Source of the DNA: Draconibacterium aestuarii | GTDB taxonomy: Bacteria > Bacteroidota > Bacteroidia > Bacteroidales > Prolixibacteraceae | Direction: 5' to 3' | Assembly (NCBI GenBank): GCA_026671195.1 | Contig: JAPOHD010000002.1 | Span: 1 to 64,000 of the forward strand | Length of the DNA: 64,000 nt | Shown: positions 7,467-57,659 of the stretch, piece by piece | Layout of the letters: each line of letters opens with the position of its first letter | How positions within the stretch are numbered: position 1 is the first letter of the stretch | Notes under the pieces: generated by a model | What the model was told of the DNA's origin: nothing | Seen by the model: only the letters and a program-made list of their open reading frames with translations | The model's database searches: none | Program-made: the position numbers and the translations under genes

Positions 7467-8903
7467 ATGATCCGAAAAATAGTAACACTTCTCCTCTTGA
7501 CCATTTTTATTCAAACAGTTGGTGCACAGGAACGACCTCCGGCAGAAGAGCGTCTTGAATGGTGGCACGAAGCCAAGTTCGGAATGTTTATCCATTGGGG
7601 TGTATATTCTATGTATGGAGGAGTTTATAACGGACACCATCAGGCATATGGTGATGCAGCATGGATAGAGAACCGTTGCAAAATACCAGTGGCAGAATAC
7701 CGCGAACATGCCAGAGATTTCAACCCGACAAACTACGATCCTGAAGCATGGGTAAAACTGGCCAAAGAGGCCGGAATGAAATACCTGATTGTCGGAGCTA
7801 AACACCACGACGGTTTTGCCTTGTTTGAAAGCAAAGCCAGCGACTGGAATGTGGTGGATGCAACGAAATACGGCAAAGATCTGTTAAAACCTTTGGTAGA
7901 AGCCTGTAAAGAAAATGGAATAAAACTCGGCTTTTATTATTCGCAGGCCAACGACTGGACTAACCCCGGAGGGACGGTTGCCCGTCGCCCCATGTGGCAG
8001 GGCTGGCCCAGTCCTGATTCTGCCCGCATCGATCAATACACACTGGAGCACAACGGAAGCTGGGATCCGATTCAGGAAACATCAACCTTTGATGAATATG
8101 TGGATCGCGTTGCCGTTCCCCAGGTAAAAGAATTACTTACAAATTACGGTGAAGTTTCTGTGTTGTGGTGGGATTATGCCACCCAGATGAAAAGCTACGA
8201 AGGGGCCGTAAAACTGGAGAAACTTCTGAATATACAGCCCAATATTATCACCAACGACCGCCTGCATCCAGACTTCCCCGGCGACACAAAAACACCGGAG
8301 CAGGGAATACCCAAATGGGAAGCAATTGACGAAAGCGAAAGCTGGGAAAATTGTATGACCATGAATAATTCGTGGGGTTACAAAAGCTTTGATGACAAGT
8401 GGAAATCATCAGAAAAATTAATCCAAAACCTGATCAAAAATGTGTCGCGGGGAGGAAATTACCTGCTGAATGTAGGTCCCAAAGCTGACGGAACGATTCC
8501 GGAAGAAAGTGTACAACGGCTAAAAGATGTTGGAAAGTGGATGGATGTGAACAGCGAAGCCATTTACGGAACTCAGATTAGTCCGTTCGGAGAAATTCCC
8601 TGGGGAGAGTGTACCTGCAAAGAGGAAAAGAATAAAACAACTTTGTACTTTTTTGTTTTCGACTGGCCCGAAAACGGCGAGCTTCAAATTAAAGGGCTAA
8701 CAAATAAAATTATATCTGCTAAACTGTTGGCAAACGGAGAAAAACTGAAAACTCAAAAAACTTCATCTGAAACAAAAATCCTGATTCCTGAAAAAGCACT
8801 TGATCCGGCCGCCACAGTTATTAAAGTTCAGGTAAAAGGAAAAGTGGAAAGGCAGTGGTCTTCGAAGAATAAAAAAAAAATACACACCGGGGCACAGGAT
8901 TAA
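7467..8903 (+). CDS. GH29 alpha-L-fucosidase
   Basis: 478 residues with a Sec signal ending V-G-A-Q near residue 21. The catalytic barrel opens with 'WWHEAKFGMFIHWGVYS', continues with 'YDPEAWVKLAKEAGMKYL' and 'AKHHDGFALFESKASDWNV', and contains L-W-W-D, where D236 is the expected retaining nucleophile of GH29. 'GGNYLLNVGPKADGTIP' is the usual end of the barrel, followed by a small C-terminal beta domain. The family releases alpha-L-fucose from glycan side chains, probably in the periplasm or at the surface. The gene starts 1 bp after the degenerate GH28 stop. The last 20 residues are lysine-rich and include an A-run in the DNA near 8871-8880, a possible slippage site. Confidence 0.92.
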   Translation: MIRKIVTLLLLTIFIQTVGAQERPPAEERLEWWHEAKFGMFIHWGVYSMYGGVYNGHHQAYGDAAWIENRCKIPVAEYREHARDFNPTNYDPEAWVKLAKEAGMKYLIVGAKHHDGFALFESKASDWNVVDATKYGKDLLKPLVEACKENGIKLGFYYSQANDWTNPGGTVARRPMWQGWPSPDSARIDQYTLEHNGSWDPIQETSTFDEYVDRVAVPQVKELLTNYGEVSVLWWDYATQMKSYEGAVKLEKLLNIQPNIITNDRLHPDFPGDTKTPEQGIPKWEAIDESESWENCMTMNNSWGYKSFDDKWKSSEKLIQNLIKNVSRGGNYLLNVGPKADGTIPEESVQRLKDVGKWMDVNSEAIYGTQISPFGEIPWGECTCKEEKNKTTLYFFVFDWPENGELQIKGLTNKIISAKLLANGEKLKTQKTSSETKILIPEKALDPAATVIKVQVKGKVERQWSSKNKKKIHTGAQD

Positions 8904-8930
8904 AAACCGGCAAAGAAAAGCACAACAACG

Positions 8931-11012
8931 ATGACAAAATATTTAAGTTATTTTCTATTACTGTTTTATGTTGCACTCATTTCGTGTTCCGACGACATCA
9001 ATATTTTTGTATCAACTCAGGGAAACGAAGAAGGAAATGGCACTTTTAAAAAACCTTTCTCCAGTATTGAAAGAGCCAAAAACTTCATTCACTTACAAAG
9101 AGCCAAAGGCAATAGTGAACCTTTTTGCATTTTAGTTCGTGGAGGTGATTATTATTTTACACAGACCCTAAAATTTACTGATGCCGACAGCAATCTGATC
9201 ATCAAACCATACGGGCAGGAAAAGGTACGGTTTACCGGAGGTTTATCGGTTGATCCGGCCAATGCCTTGCCTGTATCCGGAACGGAAAATGAAAAATTGT
9301 TCCCTTCTGAAAATCGTGCGAATATTTTAATGGTTCATTTAAAAAAGCTGGGAATAACCGATTATGGGGAACTGCACCCCAACGGATTTAGTCGCCCAAA
9401 AATACCGGTCTGGATGGAACTTTTTGTAAATGATGTGCCGGGGCATCTGGCCCGATGGCCCAACGATTCATCCATTGTAATTGGCAAGATTTTACAGGAA
9501 GGTTCTGTGGCTTCCAATGGCGACGATGGAAATATTGGCGGGAAATTTACATACGATGTGAGCCGCCCTTCGAAATGGAAAATCCCGGATGATATCTGGA
9601 TATTCGGATTCTTTAATTATGGCTGGGCTGACGATGCGGTAAAGCTGACTTCGATTGATACGATCAATAAAACTTTTACAACAGCACAACCCCACCGTTA
9701 CGGTTTTGATTCAGGAAAACCTTACAATAAATGGTATGCCTATAATATTGCCGAAGAAATTGACATGCCCGGCGAATATTATATCGACAGAAAAGAAGGA
9801 ATCCTGTATTTCTACAATCCCGGAAAAATCGAAAGCATCGAACTTTCTGTTTTCGAAGATCCTTTTATAACCATCAACGGTTCGTCAAACATTACGGTTG
9901 AAGGAATTACATTTGACTGTACTAGGGGAATAGCAGCAGAAATGTTCAAAACGGAAAATTGCATTTTTCAGGATTGCACCTTTAACAATATGGGTATGTA
10001 TGCCGTAAACATAAACTACGAGGAGAATGCTGTTCTTAATAGTGATCCTGTTCTCAGTAAAAACAATGGATTAAAAAATTGTACAGTTTGTCAGACCGGC
10101 TCGGGTGGAATTTTACTGTACGGCGGAAACCGAAAAACACTTGAAGCTTCAGGAAATTATGTTGAAAACTGCGCCATTCACGATTTTAACCGCATCTCAA
10201 AAACCTATTGTGCGGGCATCAAAATTTCGGGCGTAGGAAACCGGATTTCACACAACGAACTTTATAACTCACCACACGCAGCCATCCTGCTTTCAGGAAA
10301 CGACCACCTGATTGAATACAACGAAATTCATAGTGTTTGTATGGTTACCGATGACGTTGGGGCGCTTTATTACGGTCGCAATCCTTCAGAAAGAGGAAAT
10401 GAGGTCAAGTACAATTATTTCCATCATCTGGGAGATAAGCACCGGACTACCGCTGTTTACCACGACGACGGAGCCTGCGGAATGACGGTTCACGGAAATA
10501 TTTTCTACAAAGCAGGCATTTTTCCTTCTCTTATTGGGGGCGGAAGCGATAATATATACACCAATAATATGTTTTTCGATTGCCCCGTCGGGATTAAAGT
10601 TGATAACCGTATGGAAGCATTCGAATGGGCCAAACCCATGATTGCCAAAGGTGGTGTGATTGAACAAAGACTAAATGAGATACATTACGATCAACCACCT
10701 TACAGCACGAAATATCCTGAATTAACAAAATACTGGGACGAAAATCCGGCATTCCCGAAACGAAACAAGATTGACGGAAATATATTTGTGAATGTTGATC
10801 AAATTATTTTGAAAGTTGATGACGGCGTAAACTCGGACAAACAGTTTCTGGATTTCAGCGATAACAATTTAATCACAGACAAAGATCCCGGTTTTGTTGA
10901 TTTCGAGAATCAGAACTTCAAGCTGAAAGAATCATCTGAAGTTTTTAAGATATTACCGGTTTTTGAACAAATACCTTTCGAAAAAATTGGTTCTCTTAAA
11001 AGTAGAAAATAA
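8931..11012 (+). CDS. Right-handed beta-helix lipoprotein, GH141-like
   Basis: 693 residues. The leader ends in A-L-I-S-C (about residue 19), a lipobox, so it is a lipoprotein. It opens with the 'VSTQGNEEGNGTFKKPFSSI' style start of pectate-lyase-like helices, then 'GHLARWPN' and 'YYIDRKEGILYFYNP', a signature I associate with GH141-type proteins, then many N-rich helix rungs. GH141 includes an alpha-L-fucosidase of rhamnogalacturonan-II breakdown and xylanases, so a deoxysugar- or pectin-directed role fits the neighbours. I cannot identify the catalytic residues of this family by eye. It is 27 bp from the GH29 gene. Alternative: a non-catalytic carbohydrate-binding beta-helix. The fold call is firm; the GH141 label is moderate. 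Confidence 0.72.
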   Translation: MTKYLSYFLLLFYVALISCSDDINIFVSTQGNEEGNGTFKKPFSSIERAKNFIHLQRAKGNSEPFCILVRGGDYYFTQTLKFTDADSNLIIKPYGQEKVRFTGGLSVDPANALPVSGTENEKLFPSENRANILMVHLKKLGITDYGELHPNGFSRPKIPVWMELFVNDVPGHLARWPNDSSIVIGKILQEGSVASNGDDGNIGGKFTYDVSRPSKWKIPDDIWIFGFFNYGWADDAVKLTSIDTINKTFTTAQPHRYGFDSGKPYNKWYAYNIAEEIDMPGEYYIDRKEGILYFYNPGKIESIELSVFEDPFITINGSSNITVEGITFDCTRGIAAEMFKTENCIFQDCTFNNMGMYAVNINYEENAVLNSDPVLSKNNGLKNCTVCQTGSGGILLYGGNRKTLEASGNYVENCAIHDFNRISKTYCAGIKISGVGNRISHNELYNSPHAAILLSGNDHLIEYNEIHSVCMVTDDVGALYYGRNPSERGNEVKYNYFHHLGDKHRTTAVYHDDGACGMTVHGNIFYKAGIFPSLIGGGSDNIYTNNMFFDCPVGIKVDNRMEAFEWAKPMIAKGGVIEQRLNEIHYDQPPYSTKYPELTKYWDENPAFPKRNKIDGNIFVNVDQIILKVDDGVNSDKQFLDFSDNNLITDKDPGFVDFENQNFKLKESSEVFKILPVFEQIPFEKIGSLKSRK

Positions 11013-51243: not shown

Positions 51244-52134
51244 TTGACAGGGCAGGATCGAAATACCGAGATTGAAAACTCTCTTCCGGATTATCCGTTC
51301 CATGCCAACTATATTGAAATTGATCATTTAAAAATTCATTTTATTGATGAGGGAGACAAAACTGCACCTGCCATTTTATTTTTGCATGGTGTACCCACCT
51401 GGTCATTCACTTTCCGAAGAATATTTCACGTTTGCCTTAATGCCGGTTGCCGGGTAATTGCACCTGATCTGCCTGGTTTTGGGAGATCGGACAAACCGGA
51501 CGATCACAGTTTTTATACGATAACCAGGCTGGTGGAAATTGTTGATCAATTTGTTCAGCAAAAAATGTTACAATCCAGTTTCTTATTTGCCCAGGATTGG
51601 GGCGCCATTCTAGGAATGATACTGGCAGCAAAACATCCTGAGTTTTTCTCCGGTATTATTGCCTGTAACGGATATCTGCCCGATTTGAAAGCCAAATCAC
51701 CCCTTTCTTTTGTGGGTTGGAAGTTACTGTGTAAATATTCTCCGGTTTTGCCAGTGGGGAGGATTGTTGATATTGCCAGCGAACACAAGTTGTCGCCTGC
51801 CGAACGAAAAGCGTATGATCTTCCATTTAAAAATAAGAAGGACAAAATTGCCATCCATATTTTGCCTCAACTCATTCCTGTAAAAGATAATTCTGCAGAG
51901 TGTGAACTAATTCGTGAAAGTTGGGCGAAATTAAAAACTTACAAAAAACCATTTCTTACTGTTTTTAGCAGTGACGATAAAATAACAAGAGGTGGAGAAA
52001 AGCTTCTTCAACAAAGAATTCCCGGGGCCAAAAATCAAGAGCACAAAATTTTGAAGGGCAGGCATTTTTTACAAGAGGATGCACCAACTGAACTGGGTTT
52101 AATAGTTACTGAATTTGTAAGGAATAACAGATGA
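51244..52134 (+). CDS. oleB: OleB-type alpha/beta hydrolase (beta-lactone decarboxylase)
   Basis: 296 residues, cytoplasmic. It has the haloalkane-dehalogenase fold: 'FLHGVPTWSFTFR' (oxyanion site, H48-G49), 'APDLPGFGRSDKP', nucleophile D118 in Q-D-W-G, acid D244 or D245 and base H274 in 'GRHFLQEDAP'. OleB enzymes decarboxylate the beta-lactone to the olefin in the last step of head-to-head hydrocarbon synthesis. The identification rests on fold plus context: OleA, OleC and OleD-type genes follow directly. The start is a TTG at 51244, because an in-frame TAA at 51229 and the absence of an ATG leave no alternative. The stop overlaps the next start by four bases (ATGA). By itself it could be read as a dehalogenase; the operon argues otherwise. 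Confidence 0.85.
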   Translation: MTGQDRNTEIENSLPDYPFHANYIEIDHLKIHFIDEGDKTAPAILFLHGVPTWSFTFRRIFHVCLNAGCRVIAPDLPGFGRSDKPDDHSFYTITRLVEIVDQFVQQKMLQSSFLFAQDWGAILGMILAAKHPEFFSGIIACNGYLPDLKAKSPLSFVGWKLLCKYSPVLPVGRIVDIASEHKLSPAERKAYDLPFKNKKDKIAIHILPQLIPVKDNSAECELIRESWAKLKTYKKPFLTVFSSDDKITRGGEKLLQQRIPGAKNQEHKILKGRHFLQEDAPTELGLIVTEFVRNNR

Positions 52135-53180
52135 ATTACGGTTGCAACATAGAAAGTATTGGGATTAAGTTGCCTGACCGGAAACTGAGTACATCTGAAA
52201 TTGAAAGTAGGTTGAATATTGCAAATCCGTTAAAATTAGAGTTGTTAACCGGTATTTCGAATCGGAGAGTTTGTTGCGAAAATGAAGATTCACTGACACT
52301 GGCTGTTGATGCAGCGCTCGACTGTCTGAGCCACTCTGAACTTAAAGCCGAAGAGTTGGAAATGATCATCAGCTGTTCCATTTCGAAATATGTAAATGGA
52401 TTGAGTCATTGTTACGAGCCGGCCCTGTCTTTGTTGATTAAACAGGAAATTGGGAATTCAAAAGCACTTAATTTCGATGTTTCAAATGCTTGTGCCGGAA
52501 TGATTACCGGTGTACATATTGCCAATAATTTTATAAAGCAGGGAAGGATTAAAAATTGTTTGGTGGTTAGTGGCGAGTATATCTCGGGATTGATTGGGAA
52601 TGCCATAAAAACTGTCGATTCGTTATTCCATCCGGAGATGGCTTCATTAACGGTTGGCGATGCCGGTGCTGCAGTTATCCTTACCCAAACAAAGCGGGGT
52701 GAAGCAGGATTAAGTGTTTCCGAAATATCAACATTGGGTAGGTTTAGTCATTTGTGTACAGGCGTTCAGAGCAACAATTGTAAGGGAGGAATTATGAAAA
52801 CAAACATGAAAAAGATTCATGATTTATCGATAAAAAATGCCCCTTATGTTGTAGAAAATGCATTGCGGAGTGCCGGCTTGCGAATGAGTGAAATTGATTA
52901 CCTGATTCCACATCAAACGGCTAAAATATCAATTCAATCAGGTGCCCGGGTTTTATATCGATACTTTAACGAGGAGCCGGGCGAAATTGTTTATAATCTT
53001 TGTGAAACCGGTAACACCGCATCAACTACCCACTTTGCCACGTTGTATAAATACCTTTGCGAAAAGAGATTTAAAGCCGGTGATACTGTTATGCTTTTAA
53101 GTTTTGCATCGGGATTAACATTTGGAGCTATTGTTTTTTCAATGAATGGAATATCAGAGCGATATGGGAACAGTAATTAG
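52131..53180 (+). CDS. oleA: OleA-type thiolase (active condensing subunit)
   Basis: 349 residues, FabH/OleA-like thiolase fold. The triad is complete: C121 in D-V-S-N-A-C-A-G, H261 in I-P-H-Q and N295 in G-N-T-A-S. E96 in C-Y-E-P lies 25 residues before the cysteine, matching the OleA glutamate (E117 of the Xanthomonas enzyme, as I recall it) that reaches into the partner active site and acts as the base. OleA condenses two acyl-CoAs head to head to a beta-keto acid. C-terminal 'DTVMLLSFASGLTFGAIVF' closes the fold. It overlaps oleB by four bases and the next gene by up to 35. FabH would give a similar hit, but the operon with OleB, C and D-type genes supports OleA. Confidence 0.85.
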   Translation: MNYGCNIESIGIKLPDRKLSTSEIESRLNIANPLKLELLTGISNRRVCCENEDSLTLAVDAALDCLSHSELKAEELEMIISCSISKYVNGLSHCYEPALSLLIKQEIGNSKALNFDVSNACAGMITGVHIANNFIKQGRIKNCLVVSGEYISGLIGNAIKTVDSLFHPEMASLTVGDAGAAVILTQTKRGEAGLSVSEISTLGRFSHLCTGVQSNNCKGGIMKTNMKKIHDLSIKNAPYVVENALRSAGLRMSEIDYLIPHQTAKISIQSGARVLYRYFNEEPGEIVYNLCETGNTASTTHFATLYKYLCEKRFKAGDTVMLLSFASGLTFGAIVFSMNGISERYGNSN

Positions 53181-54048
53181 ATCAATAGCAATAAATAATG
53201 CCTCGGCAGAAAGTGGAGTTGCCACACTTATTGCCGAAACGGCCGACCGTTGTTTACAGAATGCCGGAGTGGACATTGGAGCGGTTGGGATGCTCATAAA
53301 TACGGGAGTTTATACTGAAAATCATTTGTTGGAACCAGCGTCGGCTACTTTAATTCACCGACGGCTTCTGGATAAAAACAAACAGGCAAAACGGAAATCC
53401 GGATCACTGGGAAATCTGCTGAGCTTTGATTTGCACAACGGAGGTGGCGGAATTGTAAATGCGCTTCAGGTGGTCGATGGATTTATCAGTTCTGGTGAGA
53501 TCGAATACGGATTGATCGTTTCGGGTGATGTGAAACCAAAAATTGGAAAGGTTGAGAATTATAAGTATTCTTCAAGTGCTGCCGCTGTTTTGGTTTCGAA
53601 AGAGAAAAGTAAACCAGGATTCATAAAATTCAAAACGGAGACATTTCCTGAGTTTAAAGAAAACATTACCAGTACAACACGATGGAAGGACGGGGGCTTG
53701 CATTTGGTAAATAAAAAAAGCAACGATTATCTTAAAAATGCGGTAGACTGTGCTGCAAAAACAATTCAGAATTTTTTTGACGAAGAACTTTTGGGGTGGA
53801 AAGATGTTGATTTGATATGTACTTCTCAAAATCCGTTAGGATTTGTTACTGAATTACAAAAAAAACTGAAAATCAAAAATAAAATTGTCTGTTTTCAGGG
53901 AGATATTGAAATTTATTCGTCAGGATTATTATATTCGATGAATCATATTATTGAAAAGGAAGAATTTAAGAATTGTGTATATGTACTGTTTTTAACCGTT
54001 GGCGCGGGTATTACAGTATCGCTTGCCTACTATAACAACAAATTATGA
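53146..54048 (+). CDS. OleA-like subunit lacking the catalytic triad
   Basis: 300 residues (294 if the ATG at 53164 is used). It is the same fold as the gene upstream ('LLSFDLHNGGGGIVNALQVVDGFISSGEIEYGLIVSGD' aligned with the OleA block), but the cysteine position is G100, the histidine position S227 and the asparagine position D253. It keeps L-E-P-A (E63), the glutamate that OleA dimers donate across the interface, and the N-terminus is about 40 residues shorter. The family precedent is active/inactive thiolase pairs such as PqsB-PqsC and ketosynthase/chain-length-factor. I infer a heterodimer with the upstream OleA. It overlaps both neighbours (35 bp upstream, 4 bp downstream), which favours equal synthesis. 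No stop or frameshift suggests decay. Confidence 0.8.
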   Translation: MEYQSDMGTVIRSIAINNASAESGVATLIAETADRCLQNAGVDIGAVGMLINTGVYTENHLLEPASATLIHRRLLDKNKQAKRKSGSLGNLLSFDLHNGGGGIVNALQVVDGFISSGEIEYGLIVSGDVKPKIGKVENYKYSSSAAAVLVSKEKSKPGFIKFKTETFPEFKENITSTTRWKDGGLHLVNKKSNDYLKNAVDCAAKTIQNFFDEELLGWKDVDLICTSQNPLGFVTELQKKLKIKNKIVCFQGDIEIYSSGLLYSMNHIIEKEEFKNCVYVLFLTVGAGITVSLAYYNNKL

Positions 54049-55667
54049 AAAGTAACGGGGTACAAAATATTTCCGATCATTTGTATCAGTCTGCCCTAAA
54101 ATTTCCCGATAAACCTATGTTGTTACATCCGGGAAAAGTATCGTACAAAGTTTTCTGTAAACTGGTTGATGCGTATGCAACGGGATTTATTAATTCCGGT
54201 ATTGTAAAAGGAACAAAGACCATTGTACTTCTTAAACCCGGTGTCGATTTCTTCGCTACAACATTTGCTCTTTTACGAATAGGTGCCATTCCGGTGATGA
54301 TCGATCCGGGCATGGGACGAAAAGCAATGATACAGGCTTTGGCCAATGCAAATGCCGGGGCTTTTATCGGCATTGCAAAATCAATGCTTCTAAAGTACAT
54401 CTCTCCAAAGAATTTTAAAAGTGTTTGTATCTGGATTTCGGGTGGGTGCTGTTGGGACATGCAAGTAAAACATTTATCAACCTTTCGTAAAAAGGGCGGT
54501 AAAAACTACGAAGTAGCCAAAACAAAACCCAACGATGAAACGGCCATCTTTTTTACAAGCGGAAGCACAGGGCCTGCAAAAGGGGTGGTTTACACAAAAC
54601 AAATGATGGAGGCACAAATTGCCGGTTTAAAAAATCATTTTAACTATAATCCGAAGGAAATTGATCTGTGTACTTTCCCTCTGATTGGATTGTTTTCAAT
54701 GTGTTTGGGACTTTCAGTTGTTTTGGCCGATATGGACATGGTACATCCGGCCCGTTTACAGCCTGAAAAATTAGTTCTGAACATATATTGGTACGGATGT
54801 ACATATTTGTTTTGTTCGCCTGTGGTTTTGCAAAAACTGGCCGAATTCTGCGTACAGGAAAATTTAAAGTTGAATTCATTAAAACGAATAATGACGGCCG
54901 GCGCGCCCGTTACTCCTGAATTGTTGAGCAATGTTGCACGAGTGATTTCCGACGAGGCTCAAATTCATACTCCGTACGGAGCAACGGAAGCTTTGCCCGT
55001 AACCGATATTAATCATAAAGAGTTGCTTCATTTATATGAGAACTCACCGAACTATTTAAATGGTATTTGTGTGGGGTATCCTCTCGAAGATATTAAATTA
55101 AAGGTAGTCCCGATTTCTGATGAGGCGATAAAAAAAATTGAAGATGTTGAGGAATGTGACAAAAGCGAAGTAGGTGAAATTGTAATACAGGGTGAAAATG
55201 TTTCGCAGGGGTATTTAAATGACCAGCTTGCTGATAAATTATCGAAAATTGCTGCAGAGTCTGGAAACCTGTTGTGGCACCGAACAGGCGATTTGGGCCG
55301 CATTGATGATAAAGGAAGAGTATGGTATTACGGAAGAAAATCGCAGCGAGTTCAAACTGAAACAAAAGTACTGTTTACGATTCCTGTAGAAGCTGTTTTT
55401 AACCGACATCCTCAGGTTGAGCGTTCTGCATTGGTTGGTGTCGTAGCTAATGGAAAAACAGAACCGGTAATTTGTATCCAGGCAAAAAAAGGAACACACA
55501 AGAGTGAAAAGTTGGTGGACGAGTTAAAAGAACTGGCTCTTCAGCAGGAATTGACCCATAACATTTCTGAATTCATCTTTGTGAAGAAATTCCCGGTTGA
55601 TGCGCGGCACAATGCCAAAATTCATCGTGAAAAGCTGGCCGAATGGGCACAGAAAATGCGAAAATAA
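54045..55667 (+). CDS. oleC: OleC-type beta-lactone synthetase (AMP-forming)
   Basis: 540 residues, ANL superfamily. Motifs: 'FFTSGSTGPAKGVVYT' (169-184), 'HTPYGATEALPVTD' (YGATE at 311-315), 'WHRTGDLGRIDDKGRVWYYGR' and the C-terminal 'FPVDARHNAKIHREKLAEWA', which I take as diagnostic of OleC. OleC uses ATP to close the beta-hydroxy acid into a beta-lactone. The four-base overlap ATGA with the upstream gene shows coupling. Alternative: a generic fatty-acid CoA ligase; the C-terminal motif and operon make OleC much more likely. Confidence 0.9.
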   Translation: MKSNGVQNISDHLYQSALKFPDKPMLLHPGKVSYKVFCKLVDAYATGFINSGIVKGTKTIVLLKPGVDFFATTFALLRIGAIPVMIDPGMGRKAMIQALANANAGAFIGIAKSMLLKYISPKNFKSVCIWISGGCCWDMQVKHLSTFRKKGGKNYEVAKTKPNDETAIFFTSGSTGPAKGVVYTKQMMEAQIAGLKNHFNYNPKEIDLCTFPLIGLFSMCLGLSVVLADMDMVHPARLQPEKLVLNIYWYGCTYLFCSPVVLQKLAEFCVQENLKLNSLKRIMTAGAPVTPELLSNVARVISDEAQIHTPYGATEALPVTDINHKELLHLYENSPNYLNGICVGYPLEDIKLKVVPISDEAIKKIEDVEECDKSEVGEIVIQGENVSQGYLNDQLADKLSKIAAESGNLLWHRTGDLGRIDDKGRVWYYGRKSQRVQTETKVLFTIPVEAVFNRHPQVERSALVGVVANGKTEPVICIQAKKGTHKSEKLVDELKELALQQELTHNISEFIFVKKFPVDARHNAKIHREKLAEWAQKMRK

Positions 55668-56659
55668 AAGTTCTTGTTACCGGTGGCGGAGGTTTTGTAG
55701 GAATGGCACTGGTGCGCCGATTGGTTCAGTCCGGTTATCAGGTGTCGTCTTTTTCAAGAAATATTTATAAAGAGCACAAGCAGATGGGTGTAAAATCCAT
55801 TCAGGGAGATATTACCGATGCCGATGCTTTAGAAATGGCTTGCGAAGGTGTTGAAGCTGTTTTTCATGTGGCCGCCAAAGTGGGAATTTGGGGCAACAAA
55901 AACGATTTTTACAAGGTAAATGTTGCTGGTACTGAAAAGGTAATTCGTGCCTGCCGGAAAAAGAACGTTAAAAAGTTGATATTTACGAGCTCGGCAAGTG
56001 TGGTTTTCGATGGATCCGATTTATTGGATGTGGATGAAGCTCTGGCGTATCCGCAAAAACCGGTTTCTTTTTATACTTCAACTAAAGCAGAAGCCGAGCA
56101 ACTGGTACTCGCTGCAAATTCAGAGGTTTTAAGAACGATATCACTTCGCCCGCATCTTATTTGGGGGCCGGGCGATACGCAGTTAATTCCTAAAATCATT
56201 CGCCGGGTGAAATCGGGCAGGTTCCGCAAAATCGGCAGAGAGGACGTACTGATTGATACGGTTTATATTGATAATTTAATAGATGCGCAGTTGCTTGCAT
56301 TGGAGAAAATGGAACTTGAGGAGGTGAATGGAAAAGCTTTTTTTATAACCAACGGAAAACCCATTTTTGTTTGGAGTTTTATTAATTCAATAACGGAAGT
56401 TTTTGGTTTGTTCCCGGTTGAAAAGCGCGTGCCCAAAGTGTTAGTATGGTTGCTTGCCTGGATGTTGGAACAAATCCACCGGCTTTTTCACATCGAAAAA
56501 GAGCCCTATATCACACGGTTTGTATTGCAACAACTTTGTACAAATCATTGGTTTGATATTTCAAGGGCGAAACGTTTGTTGGGCTATTCTCCCAAAGTTG
56601 GTTTTAAAGAGGGGATCAGGAATTTAAAAGATTCATTGAATAAGAATGAAGTACTTTGA
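55643..56659 (+). CDS. oleD: OleD-type 2-alkyl-3-oxoalkanoate reductase
   Basis: 338 residues, extended SDR. NADP-binding G-G-G-G-F-V-G (14-20), serine at S117-S119, Y144 and K148 in Y-T-S-T-K, and 'RPHLIWGPGDTQLIPKI', a block typical of OleD. The C-terminal 80 residues contain a hydrophobic segment 'KVLVWLLAWMLEQIHRLFHI' that may anchor it at the membrane or bind long acyl chains. OleD reduces the beta-keto acid made by OleA to the beta-hydroxy acid used by OleC. It overlaps oleC by 25 bases and is the last gene of the operon. Confidence 0.9.
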   Translation: MGTENAKIKVLVTGGGGFVGMALVRRLVQSGYQVSSFSRNIYKEHKQMGVKSIQGDITDADALEMACEGVEAVFHVAAKVGIWGNKNDFYKVNVAGTEKVIRACRKKNVKKLIFTSSASVVFDGSDLLDVDEALAYPQKPVSFYTSTKAEAEQLVLAANSEVLRTISLRPHLIWGPGDTQLIPKIIRRVKSGRFRKIGREDVLIDTVYIDNLIDAQLLALEKMELEEVNGKAFFITNGKPIFVWSFINSITEVFGLFPVEKRVPKVLVWLLAWMLEQIHRLFHIEKEPYITRFVLQQLCTNHWFDISRAKRLLGYSPKVGFKEGIRNLKDSLNKNEVL

Positions 56660-56972: not shown

Positions 56973-57659
56973 ATGAGTTATCTTGAAGATTTTGAAGTAT
57001 GGAAGGATGCCATTGAGGGAGTCCTTCCGGGAAAAGTTAAGCCGCCCAACCAGCCGGTTGATGATTTTGTGGCAAAAACAGAAACACTGGCTGTTGATGC
57101 CGCCGAGGATCGGGAGGCATTAAAAAGCGCAGGAATGGATGAGAACCTAATTGATGAATTGACTCCTTTAAGCGGGACATTGCGTTATTGCCAGGCGAAA
57201 TGGATGAGTGAATACCGGGCACGCGCTGAAGCCCAAACGCAATGGAAAGAACAGGCGCCGCAGGCGTATGCTCTACGTGATGAATTGTTACATCATTTTT
57301 CGTTTGCTTACCGTAACCATGATGATATAATAAAAAAGGTAAGACGTATCCGAGAGGGAGCCAGTCATGCCGATATGATTCAGGATTTAATTGAACTGGC
57401 AGTGCTGGGAGAGAAATATCCGGAACCTTTAACTTCTGTTAATTTAGATCCGGATCTTCTTCCACAGGCACGAACTGTTTCGCATACAATGTCGGAATTG
57501 CTGGCTGCCGCCAATGGTGCCAACGGCGAAGGTAGTGCCAATAAGCTGTTACGCGACAAGGCCTTTACCTTGCTGTTTGAAAAAGACAGTACGATTCGTG
57601 AGTATGGCCGTTATGTATTCTGGAAAGACGAAGACAAACGGAGCAAATATTACAAGTAG
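56973..57659 (+). CDS. Hypothetical cytoplasmic helical protein
   Basis: 228 residues, not recognised. No signal peptide or membrane segment; predominantly charged and alanine-rich helix ('SEYRARAEAQTQWKEQAPQAYALRDELLHHF', 'MSELLAAANGANGEGSANKLLRDKAFTLLFEKDSTIREYGRYVFWKDEDKR'), with D, E and K alternating. The codon usage looks ordinary. It has a strong terminator at 57686 and is not part of the ole operon (313-bp gap), though it is the next gene on the same strand. No function can be offered. Confidence 0.65.
   Translation: MSYLEDFEVWKDAIEGVLPGKVKPPNQPVDDFVAKTETLAVDAAEDREALKSAGMDENLIDELTPLSGTLRYCQAKWMSEYRARAEAQTQWKEQAPQAYALRDELLHHFSFAYRNHDDIIKKVRRIREGASHADMIQDLIELAVLGEKYPEPLTSVNLDPDLLPQARTVSHTMSELLAAANGANGEGSANKLLRDKAFTLLFEKDSTIREYGRYVFWKDEDKRSKYYK

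Follow-up and report, generated by a model that had tools for sequence, protein, structure and literature searches.

A KAS-III gene pair of the LstAB kind in a hydrolase-A1-A2-OleC-OleD operon of Draconibacterium aestuarii (Bacteroidota)

We report that the 64,000-nucleotide stretch of the Draconibacterium aestuarii genome analysed here (the window; assembly GCA_026671195.1, contig JAPOHD010000002.1, positions 1 to 64,000 of the forward strand) contains a compact run of five plus-strand genes, each overlapping the one that follows (Table 1). On the basis of the open reading frames and profile matches these encode an alpha/beta hydrolase, two proteins with KAS-III fold, here referred to as A1 and A2, and OleC- and OleD-like enzymes. 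The OleC-like protein passes the cut-off of NF006754 (589.5 vs 478 bits), a fatty acid CoA ligase family model reached by OleC-like proteins, and scores below the cut-offs of the olefin beta-lactone synthetase models NF045785 (468.5 vs 850 bits) and NF045786 (461.4 vs 900 bits), while the two OleD scores given in Table 1 are under cut-offs of 580 bits. Downstream of the operon, positions 56973-57659 encode a 228-amino-acid protein without a Pfam match. The 16S rRNA of the genome agrees with Bacteroidota, its eight top matches listed among plasmid records all coming from genera of this phylum (81.6-83.9% identity).

Table 1. Genes and selected codons of the five-gene operon (positions refer to the window).
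Feature	Position	Strand	Remarks
Alpha/beta hydrolase, OleB position	51244..52134	+	Haloalkane-dehalogenase family, HLD-I-like; NF002043 match
A1, LstA-type KAS-III subunit, 349 aa	52131..53180	+	PF08541/PF08545; Cys121 codon 52491-52493, His261, Asn295, Glu96
A2, LstB-type subunit	53164..54048	+	294 aa from likely start; 300 aa from listed ATG at 53146
A2 Glu63 codon	53332-53334	+	Glu57 counted from likely start
OleC-like beta-lactone synthetase	54045..55667	+	NF006754 589.5 bits
OleD-like 2-alkyl-3-oxoalkanoate reductase	55643..56659	+	NF042423 367.3 bits, NF042422 345.9 bits

Alignment confirmed the catalytic residues C121, H261 and N295 that had been proposed for A1 in the original prediction, and A1 has in addition a glutamate of its own, E96. 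The single-chain AlphaFold2 model of A1 (pLDDT 88.5) matches FabH and OleA structures. The A2 reading frame as listed (53146-54048) is also KAS-III-like, with a PF08545 score of 27.7 bits (cut-off 24) and a PF08541 score of 17.1 bits, which is under the cut-off of 26.6, and its single-chain model (pLDDT 89.9, pTM 0.90) resembles FabH and OleA structures (Foldseek E-values 3.9e-21 to 2.0e-17 among the 50 matches listed). Aligned with A1, A2 has G100 at the Cys position and S227 at the His position, as had been predicted; the D253 predicted opposite the Asn is less certain, since different alignments place D253, E255 or Y257 there, and residues 250-261 contain no Asn. The claim that A2 keeps the counterpart of the glutamate that OleA uses in trans also held, with E63 in the motif LEPASA aligned to LEPSTA of Xanthomonas OleA (PDB 3fk5) and to E60 of an LstB-like protein from Streptomyces globosus.

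To place the pair among its relatives a species genome collection was scanned with an A1 alignment, giving at least 498 confirmed relatives. The best 80 of these were carried forward (loci are numbered L, genomes G); genome contigs searched with A2 alone gave no match. Among these best 80 of at least 498 relatives, all found by A1 alone, A2 lies directly downstream of A1 in 78 loci, the two exceptions being L048, where A2 is reduced to remnants, and L060, where A1 is a fragment at a contig start. In L048 (approximately 2003-2122) a long A1 frame is followed by what survives of A2, its first codons and a 3' remnant. Twelve of the 80 loci, 11 titled Bacteroidota and one KSB1, share the gene order of the window (in L039 OleD falls past the contig end). 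A2 is present in 12/12 loci other than the window that have the hydrolase, A1 and OleC, and the partner is thus not absent from related operons, an absence that the original prediction had named as evidence against itself. Three of the 12 sister operons have, as read, one KAS-III gene that is broken or short (A2 for L034 and L042, A1 for L047). In L047, from Carboxylicivirga linearis, the A1 gene (7896-9029) has an internal stop and the remainder of the operon is present. For the remaining 66 pairs, 58 of which are in loci that include at least 2 kb on each side of the pair, none of the three other operon genes was detected at ≥100 bits (OleC ≥90). Moreover, sampling of 396 genomes from the phylum of L054 (Actinomycetota by title) gave nine with A1, at least one of which (G705, the genome of L054) was already in the locus set, and A2 adjoins A1 in 9/9.

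Residue conservation was counted for 76 of the loci plus the window. Excluded were L034, with a frame break in A2, L047, with one in A1, L048, where A2 is lost, and L060, which lies at the start of an apparently chimeric contig; the shortened A2 of L042 (219 amino acids) was kept as read. The A2 glutamate is present in 77/77 proteins, rows that are not independent observations because Mycobacteriaceae and Nocardiaceae dominate, and is invariant also in a smaller alignment of 38 rows, made up of the window and 37 of the 76 loci; since it is kept in all 77 we conclude from the alignments that an OleA-type Glu in A2 is not there by chance. The Cys column of A2 never holds Cys and the His column never His, while in A1 the counts are 77/77 for Cys, 77/77 for Asn and 76/77 for His, with one gap. 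These residues are retained at low overall similarity, the window A2 being 24-35% identical to the other 76 A2 proteins. Most A2 proteins have a Cys at column 101 (69/77), one residue past the old catalytic position, and a His at column 257 (68/77), near the old Asn position. A second active site built from this shifted Cys101 and His257 was considered and dropped for the window, whose A2 has neither residue.

The true start of A2 is probably M7 (position 53164) and not 53146, because M7 is invariant in the 38-row alignment and gives the 17-nucleotide overlap with A1 that is seen in 65/76 loci; E63 would therefore become E57. Counted from this start the window genes also overlap by 17 nucleotides, which bears out the overlap noted originally, and the other 11 loci overlap as well if the first possible A2 start is taken. 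In the models the first strand and first long helix span residues 8-18 and 25-40 of A2, and residues 4-13 and 54-67 of A1. Since the step from strand to helix is almost direct in A2 and long in A1, the A2 model lacks a segment of approximately 34 residues between these elements. In FabH the region matching the missing segment holds contacts to CoA, and its loss therefore suggests that the usual mode of acyl-CoA binding is absent from A2.

A pair of this kind is known from lipstatin biosynthesis in Streptomyces toxytricini, where LstA and LstB form a KAS-III heterodimer; the available part of a review (PMC12141560) states that the two are soluble only together, that LstA alone is insoluble, that LstA carries C128/H271/N305 and LstB E60, and that activity is abolished by LstA C128A, LstA H271A and LstB E60A. 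LstAB is likewise described as a KAS-III heterodimer with an essential LstB-E60 in the portion at hand of a second source (PMC7064751). The window cluster resembles this system in having adjacent genes for a triad subunit and a Glu-only subunit; it differs in that a dehalogenase-family hydrolase is present and an NRPS and a formyltransferase are absent. Since LstB counterparts are reported, in the same available part of PMC12141560, to be widespread and always clustered with LstA, the A1-A2 pairing as such is already known. The original prediction, which described known OleA as a homodimer, overlooked LstAB with its essential LstB-E60 (PMC12141560, PMC7064751, as far as the available text of both goes), and because LstAB is known A1-A2 is no new kind of enzyme.

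Protein searches of plasmid records also turned up A1 and A2 side by side in Rhodococcus and Streptomyces, and eight of these pairs were read. The order A1-A2-ligase-reductase-NRPS is seen in five of them, four from Streptomyces and one from Rhodococcus, in some cases interrupted by a small gene, and the Rhodococcus locus also has a formyltransferase; we take this order (with the formyltransferase) to be the lipstatin layout. The other three Rhodococcus pairs stand alone and overlap, while the five lst-like pairs of the eight are without overlap as annotated. The S. globosus pair, which sits in such an A1-A2-ligase-reductase-NRPS cluster, has C128/H271/N305 and E60, i.e. the published LstAB numbers; the published LstA numbers recur in two Streptomyces pairs, one of which has E60 as well. 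In trees and alignments the lst-like plasmid pairs stand in for S. toxytricini LstA and LstB. Identity between the window and the four Streptomyces pairs is 32-34% for A1 and 23-25% for A2. As judged by every testable feature of the sequences the window pair belongs to the already known LstAB kind, and there is a strong case for a trans glutamate in the pair. Among other KAS-III proteins, PqsC matches A1 by sequence, and PqsB-PqsC, named as a parallel in the original prediction, is a KAS-III heterodimer with one inactive subunit that uses other substrates than A1-A2. The FabH homodimer has the fold common to A1 and A2; FabH is decarboxylating, and in the alignments it has a Phe before the Pro where OleA and A2 have Glu.

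The phylogenetic tree resolves A1, A2 and OleA as three separate groups, and the A1 clade (support 97/98) and the A2 clade (support 99) both hold the lst-like pairs and the window proteins. Canonical OleA was placed next to A2, not A1, a deep order that was discarded because of long branches and the quick tree search. Branch lengths of A1 and A2 mirror each other (r 0.86, 32 pairs), and both this correlation and the gene overlap can come from shared operon inheritance alone. Moreover, the two halves occur as natural fusions, which make the A1-A2 heterodimer directly testable. In genome G445, which belongs to the class of the window, they form one chain of 666 amino acids (L143, 5137-7137) with the triad domain first and a second domain that retains the Glu. 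The G445 fusion and an OleB-OleC-OleD set are approximately 16 kb apart, and the intervening DNA holds polyketide synthase and further biosynthetic genes. Next to the fusion are P450 and phosphopantetheinyl transferase genes and a set of polyketide synthase, luciferase-like and AMP-ligase genes. In Mycolicibacterium hodleri (L144, 2684-8083) a 1799-amino-acid protein consists of condensation, adenylation and carrier domains followed by both KAS-III halves, the triad domain again preceding the A2-type domain. An interpretation as two independent fusions was dropped; the fused chains are sisters in the tree in both halves, and the fusions are therefore probably one event.

We consider it highly probable that A1 and A2 are the two subunits of a KAS-III heterodimer of LstAB type, in which the A2 glutamate acts at Cys121 of A1, and which feeds OleD, OleC and probably the hydrolase. 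Gene order, overlap, residue conservation, subunit folds, natural fusions and phylogeny are the direct observations on which this draws; the dimer itself and the placement of the glutamate at the cysteine we infer from LstAB and OleA, and the substrates are likewise putative. In the available part of PMC7064751, Glu 117 of one subunit of the OleA homodimer, followed by Pro, is the general base in the other subunit. By the scheme proposed for A1-A2, Cys121, with His261 and Asn295, would be acylated by one fatty acyl-CoA. The A2 glutamate (E63, which becomes E57 if counted from the likely start) would reach across the dimer interface into the A1 active site and take the alpha-carbon proton from a second acyl-CoA, and this would then attack the first in a Claisen condensation without decarboxylation. 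A2 would be without an active site of its own, because the triad and the segment of ~34 residues are both gone. The beta-keto acid would be reduced by OleD and then closed to a beta-lactone by OleC, and the upstream hydrolase would probably open the latter with loss of CO2 to give an internal olefin. The heterodimer with base and nucleophile on different subunits, as originally predicted, is the best reading of the pairing, the Glu in 77/77 and the fusions; the prediction had omitted that A1 also keeps a Glu.

The olefin as product can only be inferred because the hydrolase and canonical OleB belong to separate branches of the dehalogenases, and decarboxylation of the beta-lactone by this enzyme is deduced from gene order and shared chemistry. 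The window hydrolase scores 297.8 bits against the cut-off of 265 of the haloalkane dehalogenase model NF002043, which is also passed by 8/9 scanned sister-operon hydrolases. Its nearest PDB chains are the dehalogenases 5esr, 6f9o and 4mj3, which we take to be of HLD-I type. A tree separates 13 operon hydrolases by a branch with support 100 from a group of six OleB-type sequences, namely that of G445 and five that belong to canonical oleABCD sets. The family pentad is given as Asn-Asp-Trp-Asp-His in the accessible part of PMC10503415; numbered from the listed TTG, a start that is uncertain, the window hydrolase keeps D118, W119, D245 and H274 and has Val50 at the Asn position, so the pentad of OleB (HLD-III type) is incomplete. 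Val replaces Asn in 11/13 operon hydrolases, while the six OleB-type sequences have Asn. An operon that yields a beta-lactone, or the hydrolysed hydroxy acid, instead of an olefin is consequently a substantial possibility, if one we rate clearly below even; the hydrolase would then be no OleB, in line with its branch, its profile and structure matches and the Val, LstAB itself serves a beta-lactone pathway, and the heterodimer would be compatible with this outcome. What speaks for the olefin is that the hydrolase is the first gene in the window and in all 12 sister operons with oleC, and that four of the five pentad residues (PMC10503415, same part), the nucleophile Asp, Trp, the acid Asp and His, are kept in 13/13 operon hydrolases.

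It is improbable that A1 pairs with itself in the ordinary OleA manner, Glu96 of A1 serving as the trans base, and that A2 has an accessory or regulatory role. Such an active homodimer is compatible with the sequence, since A1 has the full set C121/H261/N295/E96 and the Glu96 column holds 75 E and 2 D (L054, L064) in 77 proteins, but A2 accompanies A1 in 78 of the best 80 of at least 498 relatives and in 9/9 Actinomycetota loci, it keeps precisely the Glu while the triad is lost, and the halves are fused in two genomes. In addition, the LstAB precedent, an insoluble LstA alone and an inactive LstB-E60A (PMC12141560, available part), argues against it. The lst-like A1 proteins likewise retain their own Glu; an expected loss of the Glu from the catalytic subunit does not discriminate, as A1 retains it, and its presence counts, at the level of sequence, against a strict division of roles between the subunits. 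That A2 is a decaying duplicate of A1 is hardly credible, for although it is short, has lost the triad, has a long branch and reads as broken or shortened in L034, L042 and L048, it forms its own clade (support 99), shows dN/dS of 0.09-0.22 in five close pairs from other loci (dS >1 in two of them) and combines the Glu in 77/77 with a well-formed predicted fold.

The LstAB-type heterodimer proposed here would operate in a setting that differs from canonical oleABCD clusters. Both have OleC- and OleD-like enzymes, a dehalogenase-family hydrolase and a Glu-Pro motif, but canonical clusters have one KAS-III gene, NACL and the order A-B-C-D (OleA-B-C-D in 5/5 neighbourhoods read), whereas the window has two KAS-III genes, NACA and the order B-A1-A2-C-D. 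The window A1 is below the NF006720 cut-off (141.5 vs 285 bits), which canonical OleA proteins exceed; OleA over this cut-off was found in 74/188 genomes from the phylum of L045 (Myxococcota by title). As a control, 20 of 75 canonical OleA matches were examined and a second KAS-III gene within 1.5 kb flanks was found in 0/20. A 2020 survey, in the part of it available (PMC7158056), reports no ole clusters in Bacteroidetes from a search with EPxx[AS]x(14,18)DxxNACL. This motif is matched by 20/20 canonical OleA and by 0/85 A1 proteins (77 plus eight from plasmids), 80/85 of which match once NACA and a spacer of 14-22 are allowed. Since the survey motif ends in NACL and A1 proteins have NACA, the survey may have overlooked these clusters (PMC7158056, same part).

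Within a partial literature search, what is new is the setting, a hydrolase-A1-A2-OleC-OleD operon in Bacteroidota, the phylum described as lacking ole clusters in the available survey text (PMC7158056). Tentatively, and with confidence just short of even, we suggest that some Bacteroidota own a branch of head-to-head hydrocarbon synthesis, which combines an LstAB-type synthase with A2 as Glu-lending scaffold, OleC and OleD, and a separately recruited HLD-I-type beta-lactone decarboxylase. The LstAB-type split active site would then have moved from beta-lactone natural products into an apparent hydrocarbon pathway, a second dehalogenase branch may have become a beta-lactone decarboxylase, and the unlike subunits could fix donor versus acceptor chain and so give unsymmetrical olefins.

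The five-gene cluster is patchily distributed, because OleC (at 1e-100) was not found in 36 other genomes of the genus (1/37, the window) and A1 (at 1e-30) not in a sample of 294 further genomes from the class of the window (1/295, the window). An A2 search of relatives of the window likewise gave 1/61, the window itself, and OleC exceeded its cut-off in 3/395 genomes of the phylum. A putative transfer of the cluster is likely. L057 holds a stand-alone pair; its short contig bears the title Candidatus Thermoplasmatota archaeon, which could be a binning error. Finally, A2 is fused to a wax ester synthase/DGAT domain in a Nocardiaceae MAG (L061, 9034-11298) and in Smaragdicoccus niigatensis (L065, 8875-11316), and these fusions hint at a role of stand-alone pairs in the supply of storage lipid esters.
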